From positions 272,648-336,647 of the forward strand of contig CABVRX010000001.1 of the NCBI GenBank assembly GCA_902500825.1: 64,000 nt of DNA. Direction: 5' to 3'. Within the stretch, counting starts at the first letter, position 1, and each line of letters begins with the position of its first letter. The notes under the pieces were generated by a model that was given only the letters and a program-made list of their open reading frames with translations, ran no database searches and was not told the DNA's origin. The position numbers and the translations under genes were made by a program. Positions 1 to 7,047 of the stretch are shown piece by piece. The stretch comes from an uncultured Nitrospira sp. Lineage in GTDB: Bacteria > Nitrospirota > Nitrospiria > Nitrospirales > Nitrospiraceae.

Positions 1-454
1 CCTCGCGGGCTTGGTCGGCGGCTCGACCGGCCTGTTGGGCGCCTCGAAGTTCTTCAGCCTGGGCCACAGCAGCCGCATCGACCTCACTCACGCGTCGGCG
101 TGCCGCAATTCCCTCTGTTTCCAAGTCCGTCAGTCGTTTCGATCGTACAGCCAATTCGCCTTCGAGCGCCTTCACCCGTTCGCCCCGTGCGGTGAGCTCT
201 CGTTGGGCAGAGGAGTATAGGGTTTCGGACGACATGATCTTCTGTTCGAGAATCTGCATTGCCGACGTCTTCACCTTCAAATCGTGTGCCGTCGTCTCCA
301 GCGCCTGCTCCTTGGTTCGCAACTGATGGGCGAGATCGTCATAGGATTGCTCACTCGAATTCTTTGGAAGCCTTCGCAACAACCAACCGATCGCGACACC
401 AATTCCTGCCGCGATGAGAAGACATCCGACCATCTGACTAATCAGTGTGACCAT
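1..454 (-). CDS. Membrane-anchored coiled-coil protein, N-terminal part (runs off the window)
   Basis: The gene starts at ATG 454 on the minus strand and is still open at base 1, so only about 151 N-terminal residues are visible. An AAGGACGGA ribosome site lies just upstream, and the ATG at 461 is excluded by a stop after a few codons. Residues about 8-26 form one hydrophobic segment followed by RR, a likely inner-membrane anchor. The rest is charged coiled coil that closely matches the first 120 residues of the protein at 1485-3986 (shared stretches include LRTKEQALETT, EQKIMSSETL and RELTARGERVKALE). That copy lacks the membrane segment. The gene begins 14 bp after the OmpA-like gene stops, so the two are probably co-transcribed. 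Function is unknown; a structural envelope role is inferred. Confidence 0.85.
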   Translation of the reverse strand, partial: MVTLISQMVGCLLIAAGIGVAIGWLLRRLPKNSSEQSYDDLAHQLRTKEQALETTAHDLKVKTSAMQILEQKIMSSETLYSSAQRELTARGERVKALEGELAVRSKRLTDLETEGIAARRRVSEVDAAAVAQAEELRGAQQAGRAADQARE

Positions 455-468
455 ACGTCATTCCGTCC

Positions 469-1323
469 TTACATCAGTATTTCGATCCGTTCATTCCGTT
501 GGGGGCCTGATTGCTGTCTCCCATGGACGAGGGGGCGTGTCGAACCATAGCCGATTGTGGTAAACGAATTCGTGAGTCCGTTGGTGGTCAAGTACTGCTT
601 GACCGCTTCGGCGCGACGCCGGCTCAGTTGCAGATTGTACTCTGCCTCACCAACGGTATCGGTATGGGCCGAGATTTCAATCGGCATGGCCGGAGCTCTT
701 CTCAAGAGCGCGATAATTTGATCCAGCCCCGCCTGTCCTTTGGCGGTGATCACGGCACTCTTGGGTTCAAATTCGATCGAGGATTTCACCAGGACCTGAT
801 TCAGCAATAGCTGGAGTGCCGACAAGGGAACGGGTGTGGAAGAAGGTGAGGCAGCCGGCGTCACCACCACACGGTCTTCGATTCGCAAGCCCGCCCGTAT
901 CGCTGGGGAGACGGCTTGCAATACCTCGGCTTTCTCTCGGTGACCGACAACTTGGCCATTGACGACCAACGAACGGCCATCAATGATGATCGATCCCCGA
1001 TCAACCATCAAGCCCAAGACCGGCAAGAGTTGCGGAACCGTGTCCACCCACACGGCCGCCTTGACCTGCTTATCGACGATAAACTGGTCGATCACACGCA
1101 GTCGGGTTTTCGCAGCGAGTGTATGAGCCTGCTCAAGAATAGTGGCCTTAGTGCGTTCATTAGGCAACGAACCGCGAAAGACCAAGCTGCCTTGCTCGAC
1201 GCTGGCGTGAAAGCTGGCGGATGTCATGGCTAGCCGTGGCGAGGAGAGATGTCTCGGGATGCATACCCAGGCAAGAACAATCAGCGCAACGACACCGCCG
1301 GTAAGAATCCCCGCACGCCTCAT
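469..1323 (-). CDS. OmpA-family protein with N-terminal anchor and BON-like repeats
   Basis: A protein of 284 residues. Residues 8-22 are a hydrophobic anchor. Residues about 35-165 hold two similar alpha/beta segments that look like BON domains (VEQGSLVFRGSLPN and VDRGSIIIDGRSLVVNGQV). Residues about 175-284 are an OmpA C-terminal domain with HTDTVGEAEYN, LSRRRAEAVKQYL and a final NERIEI, the peptidoglycan-binding signature. The arrangement resembles the mycobacterial OmpATb/ArfA layout, so it may tether the envelope to peptidoglycan. The coiled-coil gene follows after 14 bp. A broken second copy lies at 4001-4209, and both share a conserved 41-bp upstream block. The family call is secure; the specific role is not known. 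Confidence 0.85.
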   Translation of the reverse strand: MRRAGILTGGVVALIVLAWVCIPRHLSSPRLAMTSASFHASVEQGSLVFRGSLPNERTKATILEQAHTLAAKTRLRVIDQFIVDKQVKAAVWVDTVPQLLPVLGLMVDRGSIIIDGRSLVVNGQVVGHREKAEVLQAVSPAIRAGLRIEDRVVVTPAASPSSTPVPLSALQLLLNQVLVKSSIEFEPKSAVITAKGQAGLDQIIALLRRAPAMPIEISAHTDTVGEAEYNLQLSRRRAEAVKQYLTTNGLTNSFTTIGYGSTRPLVHGRQQSGPQRNERIEILM

Positions 1324-1340
1324 GAAATCAACTCGTTGAT

Positions 1341-1381
1341 GATGTACCTATTGGGGTGCGACGCGGCACGGTACCACATTT
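1341..1381 (-). promoter_or_regulatory. Conserved 41-bp block upstream of the OmpA-like gene
   Basis: This block differs at only 4 of 41 bases from 4230-4270 upstream of the broken second copy, although the flanking bases differ more. On the minus strand it reads AAATGTGGTACCGTGCC, then CGTCGCACCCCAATAGG, ending about 18 bp before the start codon. It contains GTGC...GCAC arms. It is probably a promoter with an operator or untranslated leader element. No clear -35/-10 pair was identified. Confidence 0.5.
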
Positions 1382-1455
1382 AATAATAAATCTACAGCCG
1401 GTTGGTTGAAGGATTTGATGAGGCGGGCCAAGCAGGGGAGTCATCGTATAGAGAC

Positions 1456-1472
1456 ACGCGGGAAAACCGCGT
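1456..1472 (-). terminator. Possible weak terminator hairpin after the coiled-coil gene
   Basis: ACGCGG and CCGCGT flank a 5-base loop just downstream of the coiled-coil gene that ends at 1485. There is no T-run on the minus strand, so Rho-independent termination is uncertain. Confidence 0.25.
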
Positions 1473-1484
1473 ATCGTGAGGTTG

Positions 1485-3986
1485 CTATACCCGTTCCCCA
1501 TATTTTCGGTAGTGTTGCTTCTTGGCGTCGGCGATCCAATCATCCCGCTTAATGCGCTCAGGATCGGTATCGAGCTTTTTGGCGATCTTCTGAATATCTT
1601 CCGGCTTCCAACGGGCAATTTGGATAAACGTGCGGGTGCCCATCTTATTGAGGGTATCTGCAAGGACAGGCCCGATCCCATGGATCTTTTTGAGATCATC
1701 CTCCTGCTTGTCCTTACTGATCTTGGGCGGTCCTCCTTGGGAACTCAGCGTGGCTCCATTCTGACGGGCCTGGCGAGGTCCCGCCTTTGCCGGAGCTACT
1801 TTTGCCGGCACTGCTGCTTTTTCACGAAGGGTCCCTCGCAGTTCTTTGAGACGTTGTTGCAGGCGATTGATCTGCTCGTCTTTCCCAGGAATACTCTGTA
1901 CCTCTTGCGTGAGATTCCGACGTTCCGCTTGAAGATCGTGTAACTGACGGTTGAGGTTCGCAATCTGTTCGTCTCGTCCTTGCAGCTGTTGCGCATTGAG
2001 CAGAAGTTGCTCGCGGAGTTGCTCCTGCGCCGCGCATTGCTCTTGGAGCGTGACCACTTCAGACTGGTGTTCTTGAACCGTGCGTGCGTATTTCTTTTCC
2101 CATTCTTTGAGCTCTGTTCCCTTCTCACGGAGGAGGTTGGTGGTTGGCATGAGCTCGTCGATCCGACGGTCGCGTTCTGCCAGGGACTTTTCGAGCTGCT
2201 TGAGGACTCCCCGATGGGCCGCTTCCCGGTCACTCAATTCGACCTCCAGCTGATGCACGCGGGCTTGTGTCGATTCCAGCTTCTCGACCTGGGCACGGAG
2301 TCGGTCTCGGCCGGCAAGGTCTTTGTTGAGTTGGGCGATCTGTTCGCGGAGGACGCGAATCTCCTCCTTTTGAACCTCACGGGCCTGCTCGGCGGTCCGA
2401 CAGGCCTCCAGGGCATCCTGGACTTCATCCGCCTGAGCGGCCGCAAGCGAATCGAACTCACTGACCCGCCGGTCTCGCTCCGCAATGGATTGTTCCAGCT
2501 GCTGGATCGTGCCGCGATGGACCGCTTCTCGATCACTCGATTCGACCTCGAGCTGATGCACACGATCTTGCACCAAGGCCAACCTCTCTACTTCAGCGCG
2601 CAGTCGGTCTCGATCGGCGAGCCCTTCATTGAGTTGGGCGATCTGGTCGCGCAGCACCCGGATTTCCTCCTTCAAGACGTCCTGGGCTTGCTCAGCCGTT
2701 CGACTGGCTTGTTGCGCTTCGTGGAGTTTGTCCGTCTGAGCTGCCGTGCTCGCATCGAACTTGTTGATCCGACGATCGCGTTCCGCCAGGGACTGTTCAA
2801 ACTGCTTGAGGACTCCCCGATGGGCTGCTTCCCGGTCACTCAATTCGACCTCCAGCTGATGCACACGATCTTGGACCTTGGATAGCTTCTCCAAGTGGGC
2901 ACGGAGGCGATCCCGATCGGTGAGATCTTTATTGAGTTGTGTGATCTGGTCTCGCAGTACCCGGTTTTCCTCTTTCAAGACCTCCTGAGTTTGTTCAGCG
3001 GTCTGACACGCCTGTTGGGCCCCACGCACTTCATCCAGCTGAGCAACCGCGCTCGCATTGAACTCACTGATCCGCCCATCGCGTTCCGCAAGCGACTGTT
3101 CGAACTGCTGGAGCGCTCCTCGATGCGCTGCCTCCCGATTACTCAATTCGACCTCGAGCTGATGCACACGATCTTGCACCGACGCCAGCTTCTCCAGATG
3201 GGCACGGAGGCGATCCCGATCGGCGAGATCTTTATTGAGTTGTGTGATCTGGTCTCGCAGCACCCGGATTTCCTCTTTCAAGACCTCCTGGGTTTGCTCG
3301 GCAGTGTGACAAGTCTGTTGAGCCCCGCGAAGCTCGTCCATATGGACGGCCATATTCTTATCGAACTCACTGATCCGCCCATCGCGCTCTGCAAGCGACT
3401 GTTCGAACTGCTGGAGCGCCCCTCGATGAGCTGCCTCTCGATCACTCAGCTCAACTTCTAATTGATGGACCCGGTCTTGCATCGACTCAAGCTTCTCGAC
3501 TCGGGCACGGAAATGGTCCCGATCGACGAGGCCTTCGTTGAGTTGGGCGATATGCTCGCGCAGGACACGGATTTCCTCCTTCGAGACCTCGTGGGCCTGT
3601 TCGGCGACCTGATAGGCCTGTTGAGCTCCACGGAGCTCGTTGGCCAGGGCACTCACGGTTGCGCTGAGCTCACCCACGCGTTGGCGTGCTGCAACTCCTT
3701 CAGATTCCAAGTCTGTCAGTTGTTTCGATTGTGCAGCCACTTCTGCTTCAAGCGCCTTCACTCGCTCGCCACGCGCGGTGAGCTCTCGCTGGGTTGAGGT
3801 GAAGAGCGTCTCAGACGACATGATTTTCTGTTCAAGCATCTGCATTGCCGCATTCTTGACCTTCAACTCGTGCGACGTCGTTTCCAGCGCCTGTTCTTTC
3901 GTACGCAACAAATTAGCGAGCTGCTGGCATTGTTGCTCGAACGAACTCTTAGAATTTTGCTGCAACCATCTGTTCAGTGTGCTCAT
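1485..3986 (-). CDS. Long coiled-coil protein with five 101-residue repeats and C-terminal HhH domain
   Basis: A protein of 833 residues. The start is ATG 3986 with AAGGAC upstream, at the same 14-bp spacing from the OmpA remnant as in the other copy. Residues 1-117 are coiled coil without a membrane segment. Residues about 118-622 are five head-to-tail repeats of 101 residues, each with EEIRVLR, QDRVHQLEVE and EQSLAERDRRI. Residues about 623-750 are more coiled coil with a basic, Ala/Pro-rich linker. Residues about 763-833 are a compact domain beginning DDLKKIHGIGPVLADTL, a helix-hairpin-helix of the kind labelled H3TH/flap-endonuclease-like (COG3743), often found at the C-terminus of unrelated proteins. 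The role is unknown. A long rod ending in a possible nucleic-acid or protein-binding head is an inference. Confidence 0.85.
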   Translation of the reverse strand: MSTLNRWLQQNSKSSFEQQCQQLANLLRTKEQALETTSHELKVKNAAMQMLEQKIMSSETLFTSTQRELTARGERVKALEAEVAAQSKQLTDLESEGVAARQRVGELSATVSALANELRGAQQAYQVAEQAHEVSKEEIRVLREHIAQLNEGLVDRDHFRARVEKLESMQDRVHQLEVELSDREAAHRGALQQFEQSLAERDGRISEFDKNMAVHMDELRGAQQTCHTAEQTQEVLKEEIRVLRDQITQLNKDLADRDRLRAHLEKLASVQDRVHQLEVELSNREAAHRGALQQFEQSLAERDGRISEFNASAVAQLDEVRGAQQACQTAEQTQEVLKEENRVLRDQITQLNKDLTDRDRLRAHLEKLSKVQDRVHQLEVELSDREAAHRGVLKQFEQSLAERDRRINKFDASTAAQTDKLHEAQQASRTAEQAQDVLKEEIRVLRDQIAQLNEGLADRDRLRAEVERLALVQDRVHQLEVESSDREAVHRGTIQQLEQSIAERDRRVSEFDSLAAAQADEVQDALEACRTAEQAREVQKEEIRVLREQIAQLNKDLAGRDRLRAQVEKLESTQARVHQLEVELSDREAAHRGVLKQLEKSLAERDRRIDELMPTTNLLREKGTELKEWEKKYARTVQEHQSEVVTLQEQCAAQEQLREQLLLNAQQLQGRDEQIANLNRQLHDLQAERRNLTQEVQSIPGKDEQINRLQQRLKELRGTLREKAAVPAKVAPAKAGPRQARQNGATLSSQGGPPKISKDKQEDDLKKIHGIGPVLADTLNKMGTRTFIQIARWKPEDIQKIAKKLDTDPERIKRDDWIADAKKQHYRKYGERV
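2121..3635 (-). repeat. Five tandem 303-bp coding repeats
   Basis: The repeats encode five 101-residue units of the coiled-coil protein (residues 118-622). Recurring DNA such as the stretches encoding QDRVHQLEVE is nearly identical between units, so copy number could change by recombination or be mis-assembled. Confidence 0.85.
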
Positions 3987-4000
3987 AGTGCATTCAGTCC

Positions 4001-4209
4001 TTACATCAACAATTCAATATGATGGTTCCGTTGAAGACTTGTTTGATGTCTCCCATAAACACCAAATTGCCTCGTTCGAAGCTTGTGTGGAAGGTGGCGG
4101 AAACCATGGTCGTAGACCGTGGCGAAGAGGAGAAGTGCCGCGGGATATACACGACGACAAGGAACATCAACGCAACGACACCGCTGGTGAGAATCTCCGC
4201 ACACCTCAT
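4001..4209 (-). pseudogene. Remnant of a second OmpA-like gene (large internal deletion)
   Basis: From ATG 4209 the frame reads MRCAEILTSGVVAL and VYIPRHFSSSPR, then FERGNLVFMGD. This matches residues 1-51 of the intact protein at 469-1323. The last 19 codons match its C-terminus (VYGRHQTSLQRNHHIELLM against VHGRQQSGPQRNERIEILM) but lie in another frame and end at the stop at 4003-4001. About 215 codons, including both BON-like segments and nearly all of the OmpA domain, are missing, and the junction near 4055 is out of frame. The flanks are intact: the 41-bp upstream block and the 14-bp spacer to the coiled-coil gene. Confidence 0.85.
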
Positions 4210-4229
4210 GAGATCAGCCCACTGTAGAC

Positions 4230-4270
4230 GATGTACCTATTAGGGTGCGACGGGGCACCGTATCACATTT
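4230..4270 (-). promoter_or_regulatory. Second copy of the conserved 41-bp upstream block
   Basis: It matches 1341-1381 at 37 of 41 bases. Because the gene directly behind it is broken, this copy probably now drives the coiled-coil gene at 1485-3986. The non-coding stretch 4210-4543 holds this block and the hairpin at 4478-4503; nothing else was recognised there. Confidence 0.5.
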
Positions 4271-4477
4271 GATCATGAATGTACTAGGGCAAGATTTGCA
4301 GCTGAAGCAGGCGGCGGCACAGGCTCTCTCCTGGGAAGTACGCCGTGGTGTACCACAGCGTCATCGATCGGTTAGGCGCTGAGTGGTAAAGCGCATCCCA
4401 CGAGACTGAGCCTATAACAATGAGGGGTTACAGGATGGCCGCACTACTGTATGAACGAGCTGGGCTGAAGTACGTGT

Positions 4478-4503
4478 GGGCTCACCGTATGAATGGTGAG
4501 CCC
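4478..4503 (-). terminator. Perfect 9-bp hairpin after the RsbR-N-like gene
   Basis: GGGCTCACC and GGTGAGCCC flank an 8-base loop 40 bp downstream of the stop of the gene at 4544. No T-run follows on either strand, so it may act as an mRNA 3' end or a Rho-assisted terminator. Confidence 0.4.
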
Positions 4504-4543
4504 GTAGGTGTATGGGACACAGAAATTCCGCTTGTGTAGAAAC

Positions 4544-5029
4544 CTACGCGTGCACTTTCTGATGATCGTCTCTCCGCCTACGGAGATTCGTTCCGATGCG
4601 AGTACGCTCCTTCTCATACCCCACCGCCGTGTAGTACAACGCGCGGTCAAAAAATTGACTTAAGACATGCATCAGCTCCAACTCGCCGTGTAGTTCGACT
4701 GCGCTATCCGATAACCCTTCACGCTGAACAAAGGCAGTCATGTGCTCTCTGGTGGCGGTGATGGCCCAGAGGAAATGGCTATAGGCGACGCCCTGGGTGG
4801 CTCGCCTCGCCCCGAGCTCTGTGTAACGGCGCTCGATCTCGGTCTCAGTCATGTCCATCAGCCAGTTATTCAGATTCTGGTAGATTTCGCGGGTGCGGGC
4901 TTGGAGCTCGTCTGGTGGGACTTTGCGGAGATCGCTACAGCGTGGAGAGTTCCACACTTTCTCGCTGAGCTCGTGCGCAAGTTTTTCGGAGTTTTTCTCG
5001 ATCAGCCTCACCAATCGGCCAGCCAGCAT
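4544..5029 (-). CDS. RsbR-type N-terminal sensor-like protein, stand-alone
   Basis: A 161-residue helical, soluble protein. The start at ATG 5029 is supported by GGAGGTGCGCTATG; the longer frame to 5086 has no ribosome site. It starts MLAGRLVRLIEKNSEKLA and contains NWLMDMTETEIERRYTELG, then SHFLWAITATREHM. This pattern resembles the RsbRD N-terminal (RsbT co-antagonist) domain, a non-haem globin-like helical fold. The STAS domain that normally follows in stressosome proteins is absent, so it is not a full RsbR. The C-terminus is very basic (LRRRRDDHQK). It stands alone, divergent from purH. The family call is moderate and the role, possibly signal sensing, is inferred. Confidence 0.65.
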   Translation of the reverse strand: MLAGRLVRLIEKNSEKLAHELSEKVWNSPRCSDLRKVPPDELQARTREIYQNLNNWLMDMTETEIERRYTELGARRATQGVAYSHFLWAITATREHMTAFVQREGLSDSAVELHGELELMHVLSQFFDRALYYTAVGYEKERTRIGTNLRRRRDDHQKVHA

Positions 5030-5282
5030 AGCGCACCTCCATAAGTGAGTGGTTACGTAGGGGAATGCATGGGGACTCCTCACCACACTGCCAACGACAT
5101 TACTTCAATGATAGCACCAACGTCAATGACACGTTTGTCGGGGCTGGCAGGTTCCGTGCGTTACTTGATGTCCTCGAATATACCCTGCAAGGGGAAGGTC
5201 GGCTTCGACTGTCGCCGCCGAACCTCGTCACAGCCCAAAGAGGCTTTCTCTCACATAAGACACTACCGGCCCACCTGTCGCC

Positions 5283-5311
5283 TTGAACTTACCCCACCCA
5301 TTTGCTATCCT
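5283..5311 (+). promoter_or_regulatory. Sigma-70-type promoter of purH
   Basis: TTGAAC (5283-5288) and TATCCT (5306-5311) are separated by exactly 17 bp and lie 62 bp before the purH start. This is the best housekeeping promoter match seen in the window. The rest of the 344-bp gap between 5029 and 5374 shows no recognisable gene. Confidence 0.6.
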
Positions 5312-5373
5312 TTGTGGTCCTTCGTAGCCGACATATCTCTTCCACCGTACACACGATCTTAAGGAGTACTCAC

Positions 5374-6927
5374 ATGGCCAGCATCAAGCGGGCGTTGATC
5401 AGTGTTTCTGATAAGACCGGAGTCATCGAGATGGCCAAAGGTTTGGAAGCGCTTGGGGCGGAAATTTTGTCCACGGGAGGGACGGCCAAAGCGTTGCGCG
5501 ACGCCGGGGTGAAGGTCACGGATGTCGCGGCCTATACGGGATCGCCGGAGATTCTCGATGGCCGAGTGAAAACGTTGCACCCCAAGATTCATGGCGGTTT
5601 GCTGGGACGTCGGTCGCTTCCGGCGCATGTCGAGCAGATGAATCAACATGGGATCGGTCCAATCGATGTGGTCGTGGTTAATCTCTATCCCTTTGAAGCC
5701 ACGATCGCCAAACCCAACTGTCGTTTTGATGATGCTATTGAAAATATCGATATCGGCGGCCCGTCCATGTTGCGGTCGGCGGCCAAGAATCATGATGATG
5801 TGTTGGTCGTTGTCGATCCGGCCGATTATTCGCGCGTGCTGGAGGCCGTGAACGGCAATACGGTGACACCCGCGCTGCGCCGTGAGTTGGCGATGAAGGT
5901 CTTCCAGCATACGTCGCGCTATGATGGGTTGATCGCGGGTTATTTGGAGAAGCATGCGAAAGGCGGAGAGGTCAAATTCCCCAAAGTATTGTCGTTTCAA
6001 TTTGAGTTGGCCGAGGCCCTCCGCTACGGAGAAAATCCCCACCAACAAGGCGCGTTTTATCGCGAATTGGACAGCAAGGAGCCATCGGTTTCTCGCGGGA
6101 AAATCTTGCATGGCAAGGCGATGTCTTACAATAACTTCCTCGATGCGAATTCCGCGCTCGAGCTGGTGAAGGAATATGAGGAGACGGCCGTCGCGATCAT
6201 CAAACACAACAATCCCTGTGGTGCGGCGCTCGGTGAGACGCCGGTAGAGGCGTATGTCAAGGCGAGGGAGACAGATCCCGTGTCTGCCTTCGGCGGCGTG
6301 ATTGCCTTCAACCGACCGGTGGATATGGCGGCTGCCAAAGAAATTACGTCCACGTTTGTTGAGGTCGTGATCGCTCCAGGATTTGCTGAAGATGCATTGA
6401 CCGAATTGAAGCGGAAGAAGGATCTGCGTTTATTGGACGTGGGTCCCTTGACGAAGGTGAAACAGGAGGGGTTCGACCTGAAGAAACTTGTCGGCGGGCT
6501 CATCGTACAGGATCGCGATCTCGGAGCCTTATCGGATCTTCGGACACTTACCGTGCCGACCATCCGTAAGCCGACGGATGAAGAATATGCGGCGTGTGCC
6601 TTTGCCTGGAAAGTTTGCAAACATGTCAAGTCTAACGCCATCATCTATGCCAAGCCCGGCCAGACCGTCGGCATCGGGGCAGGACAAATGAGCCGTGTGG
6701 ATTCCGTGAAGTTGGCGGCGATGAAAGCCCAAATGCCGGTCAAAGGCTGCATCATGGCTTCAGACGCGTTCTTTCCGTTCCGCGATGGTCTCGATGCCGC
6801 GGCTGAAGTCGGTATTACGGCCGTCATTCAACCAGGCGGATCGATCCGAGACGCAGAAATCGTCAAAGCCGCGGATGAACATGGGATGACGATGATTCTC
6901 ACCGCCATGCGCCACTTCCGCCACTGA
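5374..6927 (+). CDS. purH: Bifunctional AICAR formyltransferase/IMP cyclohydrolase
   Basis: The enzyme catalyses the last two steps of IMP synthesis: it formylates AICAR with 10-formyl-tetrahydrofolate, then closes the ring. It has 517 residues, the normal length. The start is ATG 5374 with AAGGAG 7 bp upstream; the upstream extension to 5302 overlaps the promoter. Residues 1 to about 195 are the MGS-like cyclohydrolase domain (RALISVSDKTG, HPKIHGGLLGRR, NIDIGGPSMLRSAAKN). The remainder is the transformylase domain, with the KHNNPCG Lys-His pair and SDAFFPFRDGLD. purD follows about 160 bp later on the same strand, so a purine pair is likely. Confidence 0.97.
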   Translation: MASIKRALISVSDKTGVIEMAKGLEALGAEILSTGGTAKALRDAGVKVTDVAAYTGSPEILDGRVKTLHPKIHGGLLGRRSLPAHVEQMNQHGIGPIDVVVVNLYPFEATIAKPNCRFDDAIENIDIGGPSMLRSAAKNHDDVLVVVDPADYSRVLEAVNGNTVTPALRRELAMKVFQHTSRYDGLIAGYLEKHAKGGEVKFPKVLSFQFELAEALRYGENPHQQGAFYRELDSKEPSVSRGKILHGKAMSYNNFLDANSALELVKEYEETAVAIIKHNNPCGAALGETPVEAYVKARETDPVSAFGGVIAFNRPVDMAAAKEITSTFVEVVIAPGFAEDALTELKRKKDLRLLDVGPLTKVKQEGFDLKKLVGGLIVQDRDLGALSDLRTLTVPTIRKPTDEEYAACAFAWKVCKHVKSNAIIYAKPGQTVGIGAGQMSRVDSVKLAAMKAQMPVKGCIMASDAFFPFRDGLDAAAEVGITAVIQPGGSIRDAEIVKAADEHGMTMILTAMRHFRH

Positions 6928-6932
6928 TTGGA

Positions 6933-7047
6933 TGTTGAAAACAGCCGCCAGCGGCGTTCTCGCATCGCTCAGCGCCTCAACGTACTCGCAAGCTGTACGC
7001 CTCGGCACTTTGCTCGCTGCGGCCTTGCCGGTGACTCGTTTTGAACA
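6933..7047. repeat. Imperfect inverted-repeat element between purH and purD
   Basis: The ends mirror each other: TGTTGAAAACAGCCGCC at the left and, reversed, TGTTCAAAACGAGTCACCGG at the right. A smaller hairpin, GTAC...GTAC around CGCAAGCT, sits in the middle. The whole of about 115 bp could fold into one stem. It resembles short interspersed palindromic elements that I recall as common in Nitrospira intergenic regions, but only one copy was noticed in this window. Confidence 0.5.

Follow-up and report, generated by a model that had tools for sequence, protein, structure and literature searches.

A decayed OmpA-like gene probably maintained as an open, translated leader of a coiled-coil gene in Nitrospira

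The beginning of the window (G000:C1:272648-336647, the whole stretch of 64,000 nucleotides analysed, from a 3.79 Mb Nitrospira genome) carries two tandem OmpA-like/coiled-coil gene units, of which one has an OmpA-like gene reduced to its two ends. The question is what keeps this remnant in place in front of the coiled-coil gene CC1. Read along the minus strand, the elements are block 1, ompA#1 remnant, CC1, block 2, intact ompA#2, CC2, and dnaE, and purH is the divergent neighbour on the opposite side of the locus from dnaE. The features are as follows.

4230..4284, minus strand: promoter-like block of unit 1, 75 nt 5' of the old ompA#1 start, 37/41 against unit 2
4006..4209, minus strand: ompA#1 remnant, a 67-codon open frame from a conserved ATG, with dN/dS ~1 and the frame-open signal
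4209-4001, minus strand: ompA#1 remnant as aligned to the intact gene, the N-terminal ~50 codons plus the last 19, the latter out of frame
3987..4005, minus strand: spacer of 19 nt from the leader stop to the CC1 start, holding TAAGGA
1485..3986, minus strand: CC1, coiled-coil protein of 833 aa without membrane segment, with five 101-aa repeats and a C-terminal helix-hairpin-helix-like domain
1341..1395, minus strand: promoter-like block of unit 2, 72 nt 5' of ompA#2
469..1323, minus strand: ompA#2, intact, 284 aa, with an N-terminal membrane segment, a weak BON-like middle, and an OmpA C-terminal domain
1..454, minus strand: 5' part of CC2 with an N-terminal membrane segment, running left past a 100-N gap to L031 5512

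An earlier note had described a twofold tandem array of block, OmpA-like gene, spacer, and coiled-coil gene, and the direct repeats D3, D5, D6, and D7 bear this out. At 1341 and 4230, the two 41-bp blocks share 37 of 41 positions, while shuffled sequences reach at most 23. The claim of an identical spacer and ribosome site holds in part: both spacers measure 14 bp (455-468 and 3987-4000) and share TAAGGAC, but only 10 of the 14 positions agree. In both units the old TAA stop overlaps the Shine-Dalgarno (SD) sequence, and in TAAGGA at 3987..4005 this TAA is the ancestral-frame stop. The internal loss and the frame change are likewise present, as the remnant aligns to intact codons 1-49 and 267-285, with ~217 codons gone and the last 19 codons in another frame. 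Extension leftward past base 1 leads into a 100-N scaffold gap in the CC2 repeat array (L031 6549-6648), flanked by near-identical repeat copies, then to the CC2 C-terminus and dnaE. With up to one mismatch, the block occurs at exactly two sites in the entire host genome, and a whole-genome regulon search found no site beyond its own locus. Between the unit and purH, positions 4544-5086 encode a conserved 180-aa protein with weak HisK_N/RsbRD_N-like matches.

Residues 185-277 of ompA#2 match PF00691 at 73.7 bits (cut-off 27.2, E=1.6e-20), the C-terminal peptidoglycan-binding-type domain of the OmpA family. The layout resembles ArfA/OmpATb and other PF00691 envelope proteins in its N-terminal membrane segment and C-terminal OmpA domain. 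It differs from ArfA/OmpATb in that the BON-like match is weak and the NCBIfam scores stay below cut-off: the ArfA/OmpATb model NF051434 gives 38.7 bits against a cut-off of 81, and ompA#2 lies under the cut-off of all the NCBIfam models shown. The CC1 C-terminus (residues 763-801) matches HHH_5 (PF14520) at 19.7 bits and E=0.0012, where the gathering score is 27. CC1 also contains five tandem 303-nt (101-aa) coiled-coil units at 2151-3650. Across species, CC1 and CC2 lengths often step by ~101 aa (832/933/1034; 442/543/643), so the repeat copy number varies.

As the earlier note stated, only one coiled-coil paralogue keeps the membrane segment; this is CC2 in all species read, and in the G000 genome its N-terminal Kyte-Doolittle mean is 2.34 versus 0.13 for CC1. 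A distant paralogous pair at L064 7045-9020 (G000:C31) consists of an OmpA and a membrane-anchored coiled-coil/HhH partner joined by a 4-nt overlap; its HhH unit is doubled, with near-identical copies. Because CC2 is anchored in all species read and the L064 pair is anchored too, the anchored coiled-coil is likely the ancestral state, from which CC1 would have left the membrane and made its OmpA partner useless.

The distribution of the reduced gene was followed in 79 Nitrospira-type genomes of a single GTDB genus. CC1 is found in 43 of the 79, and the block lies upstream of it in 41 of these 43. Two genomes without block, G080 and G002, were excluded, and 40 leaders could be delimited. The block stands 74-79 nt from the old ompA#1 start in all 40, and 127-250 nt of decayed ompA (median 214) remain between the old start and CC1. 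A single close ompA is present in 32 of the 79 genomes; neither an intact ompA#1 nor a second intact ompA occurs in any of the 79. The intact second copy that comparison with relatives might have revealed is thus absent, and the same copy is reduced in 40/40 species with a delimited leader. A search for related loci among named genomes gave one close relative, Nitrospira sp. LK70, which is the basis for the genus name used here. L057, L058, L114, L117, and L118 have one CC1-type gene beside dnaE without ompA#2/CC2, the remnant leader being present; in these species the second unit is lost or fused away.

A collapsed repeat in the assembly could also produce a short ompA#1, and a scaffold gap does lie close by within the CC2 repeats. 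However, the same reduced state occurs in 40 independently assembled genomes, including the single-contig G039 and G081, so that this reading is rejected with near certainty. A single deletion event in one genome, as implied by the earlier note, is rejected as well, as is a recent one, since all 40 species are reduced and the junctions are clade-specific.

Alignment of the leaders against intact ompA#2 shows which pieces survive. Clade A (G000, G016, G061, G074, G081) retains codons 1-50 and ~267-285, clade B (G018, G012, G010, G052, G001) codons 1-23 and 239-287, and clade C (eleven species of the G007 type) codons 1-8 and 229-287. The remaining leaders keep about codons 1-30 with a C-terminal piece, or are eroded past alignment. 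Since different pieces are retained in each clade, trimming occurred more than once, possibly following one shared larger deletion. The block, the TAAGGA ribosome site, and the region around the start survive every trimming, and both ends are spared in each clade, in agreement with the earlier suggestion that the internal deletion left the coiled-coil gene its leader, start, and ribosome site. The junctions are too old for microhomology to show, which makes the slippage and recombination named there indistinguishable.

The region 469-4284 also bears signs of a mosaic history. The G000 leader is near those of G016/G061 (distance 0.11-0.14), whereas in the same comparison ompA#2 has dS ~0.7 and CC1 dS ~1; the CC1 N-terminus of G000 has its nearest counterparts in G081 and clade C. 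These conflicting affinities point to exchange between lineages. The CC1 N-terminal tree was dropped as a species tree, as CC1 and leader histories conflict for G000/G081.

Purifying selection on the ompA#1 protein has been lost. Leader dN/dS is 0.81-1.54 within G000/G016/G061/G074 and mostly at least 0.8 in clade C, that is ~1 versus 0.11-0.40 for the intact genes ompA#2, CC1, and CC2, and frame-breaking indels of 1-2 nt distinguish the leaders of close relatives. These values disfavour the proposal that the remnant codes for a functional small (membrane) protein. Frames of 67-73 codons with a hydrophobic N-terminus do exist in clades A, B, and D, but clade C has lost the hydrophobic stretch and G004/G011-type leaders have it in degenerate form, and the proposal is very improbable. 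A structured or binding regulatory RNA under nucleotide constraint would be a different reason for conservation. The first 30 nt of the leader are as conserved as the UTR, and the leader middle generally evolves more slowly than ompA#2 synonymous sites (roughly 0.3-1.0 times their rate in most pairs), so some other constraint at the nucleotide level may exist. Nevertheless, positions 1-7000 give no Rfam match at E up to 1, the folding energy is ordinary (mean z -0.47 versus simple mononucleotide shuffles), and the leaders of distant clades come from different ompA parts. A regulatory RNA is hence as hard to credit as the small protein.

The remaining contest is between erosion of an ordinary pseudogene and selection on the reading frame. 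Under plain erosion, the only selected elements would be the promoter block and the ribosome site of CC1, and openness would be a matter of inheritance and chance. The dN/dS of ~1, the frame-shifting indels, and the clade-specific junctions all agree with it, and it accounts for everything but the openness. The null was a neutral simulation along the leader tree, which rests on short sequences, with leader site rates and without indels, which would lower the chance of openness. Outside clade C, the ATG frame is stop-free in 26 of 29 leaders against a simulated mean of 7.0 (p ~0.0003; 2 of ~7,400 runs reach 26). These 29 leaders have 3 stops in the ATG frame and 61 and 34 in the others, where simulation gives 44, 77, and 62 for the three frames. 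The excess is confined to the ATG frame, as the other two match the null (open observed/expected 3/2.2 and 7/3.5).

In clade C, the ATG frame halts at codon 17, and the stop adjoins an ATG that opens a frame onward to CC1. When one ATG restart is permitted within 8 nt of a stop, 38 of 40 leaders get to within 26 nt of CC1 and 40 of 40 to within 34 nt, a result seen in 0 of 16,168 simulations; with branches halved it remains rare (7 and 2 of 3,721 runs). The restart rule, its limits (34 nt), and the setting-apart of clade C are all post hoc. In equal-length ATG-anchored windows of the upstream spacer, the end is reached in 26% without restart and in 43-44% with restart. Plain erosion fares best when all 40 leaders, clade C included, are taken without the restart rule: the observed count is then reached in 0.6% of neutral runs (p ~0.006) and, with branches halved, in ~10%. 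Set against the 26 open leaders and the absence of any matching run under restart, it is an unlikely reading, although a more serious one than the small protein or the regulatory RNA. As expected of a coupled leader, the ATG frame is open to near CC1 beyond chance, with the post hoc rule serving for clade C.

ompA#1 is probably a dead gene that persists as a translated leader feeding CC1, its frame kept open by selection; this is judged from sequence comparison. An ancestral two-gene operon, OmpA-like followed by a membrane-anchored coiled-coil/HhH gene, would have undergone tandem duplication in Nitrospira. CC1 of the upstream unit would then have lost its anchor, the OmpA partner would have turned dispensable, and ompA#1 would have decayed. 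Because the remnant separates CC1 from its promoter and ribosome entry, deletions would have been limited to the ompA#1 middle. Ribosomes would still enter at the old start codon, and lineages with a stop far 5' of CC1 would be purged, their CC1 being uncoupled or exposed to polarity. Such purging would leave the frame open though the peptide is worthless.

The presumed translation may be of benefit through coupling (termination-reinitiation or unmasking) or by keeping Rho polarity at bay. Concealment of the CC1 SD in structure was rejected: the SD has a mean unpaired probability of 0.50, predicted folding does not hide it, and there is no trend. Short upstream cistrons and leader peptides, such as attenuators and the erm type, are short frames translated downstream of a promoter and ahead of the structural gene, and the ompA#1 leader resembles them in its short, putatively translated frame in this position. 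Unlike them, it has no sensing sequence or conserved structure, and its origin is traceable to a duplicated full-length gene. Leader frames end -4 to +28 nt relative to CC1 in the 40 leaders, at +3 in 11 and with a 4-nt overlap in 4. These 15 of 40 resemble termination-reinitiation pairs (PMC10666635), in which the upstream frame stops on or close to the following start. In contrast to such pairs, the upstream frame here is a decayed gene without conserved protein, and roughly one leader in four ends at +19 nt or beyond, where reinitiation was weak in the tested pairs (PMC10666635). In the E. coli and Haloferax pairs tested, reinitiation falls by 40-80% at ~14 nt and is almost gone by 20-38 nt (PMC10666635). 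Reinitiation can thus serve leaders whose frame closes within or close to CC1. In the host genome, however, it should be weak, as 19 nt separate the leader stop from the CC1 start, a spacing that already gives poor reinitiation (PMC10666635). At +19 nt, escape from an untranslated, Rho-exposed stretch is the likelier benefit.

In the literature searched, most subscription journals being beyond its coverage, no paper was found that describes the locus or the avoidance of stops by pseudogenes in operons. Pseudogenes in operons are usually treated as inert. The natural series of 40 species separates the constraint on the frame from the constraint on the protein, and sequence alone can therefore measure what it costs to have an untranslated interval separating a gene from its promoter. 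The simple statistic, which compares stops per frame with a neutral simulation and takes the remaining frames as controls, could reveal further such leaders. The chances are about even that Nitrospira is under genus-wide selection for a stop-free frame, whichever frame and whichever amino acids, so that ribosomes reach the next gene, and that translated ghost leaders of this kind would form a general, detectable class.
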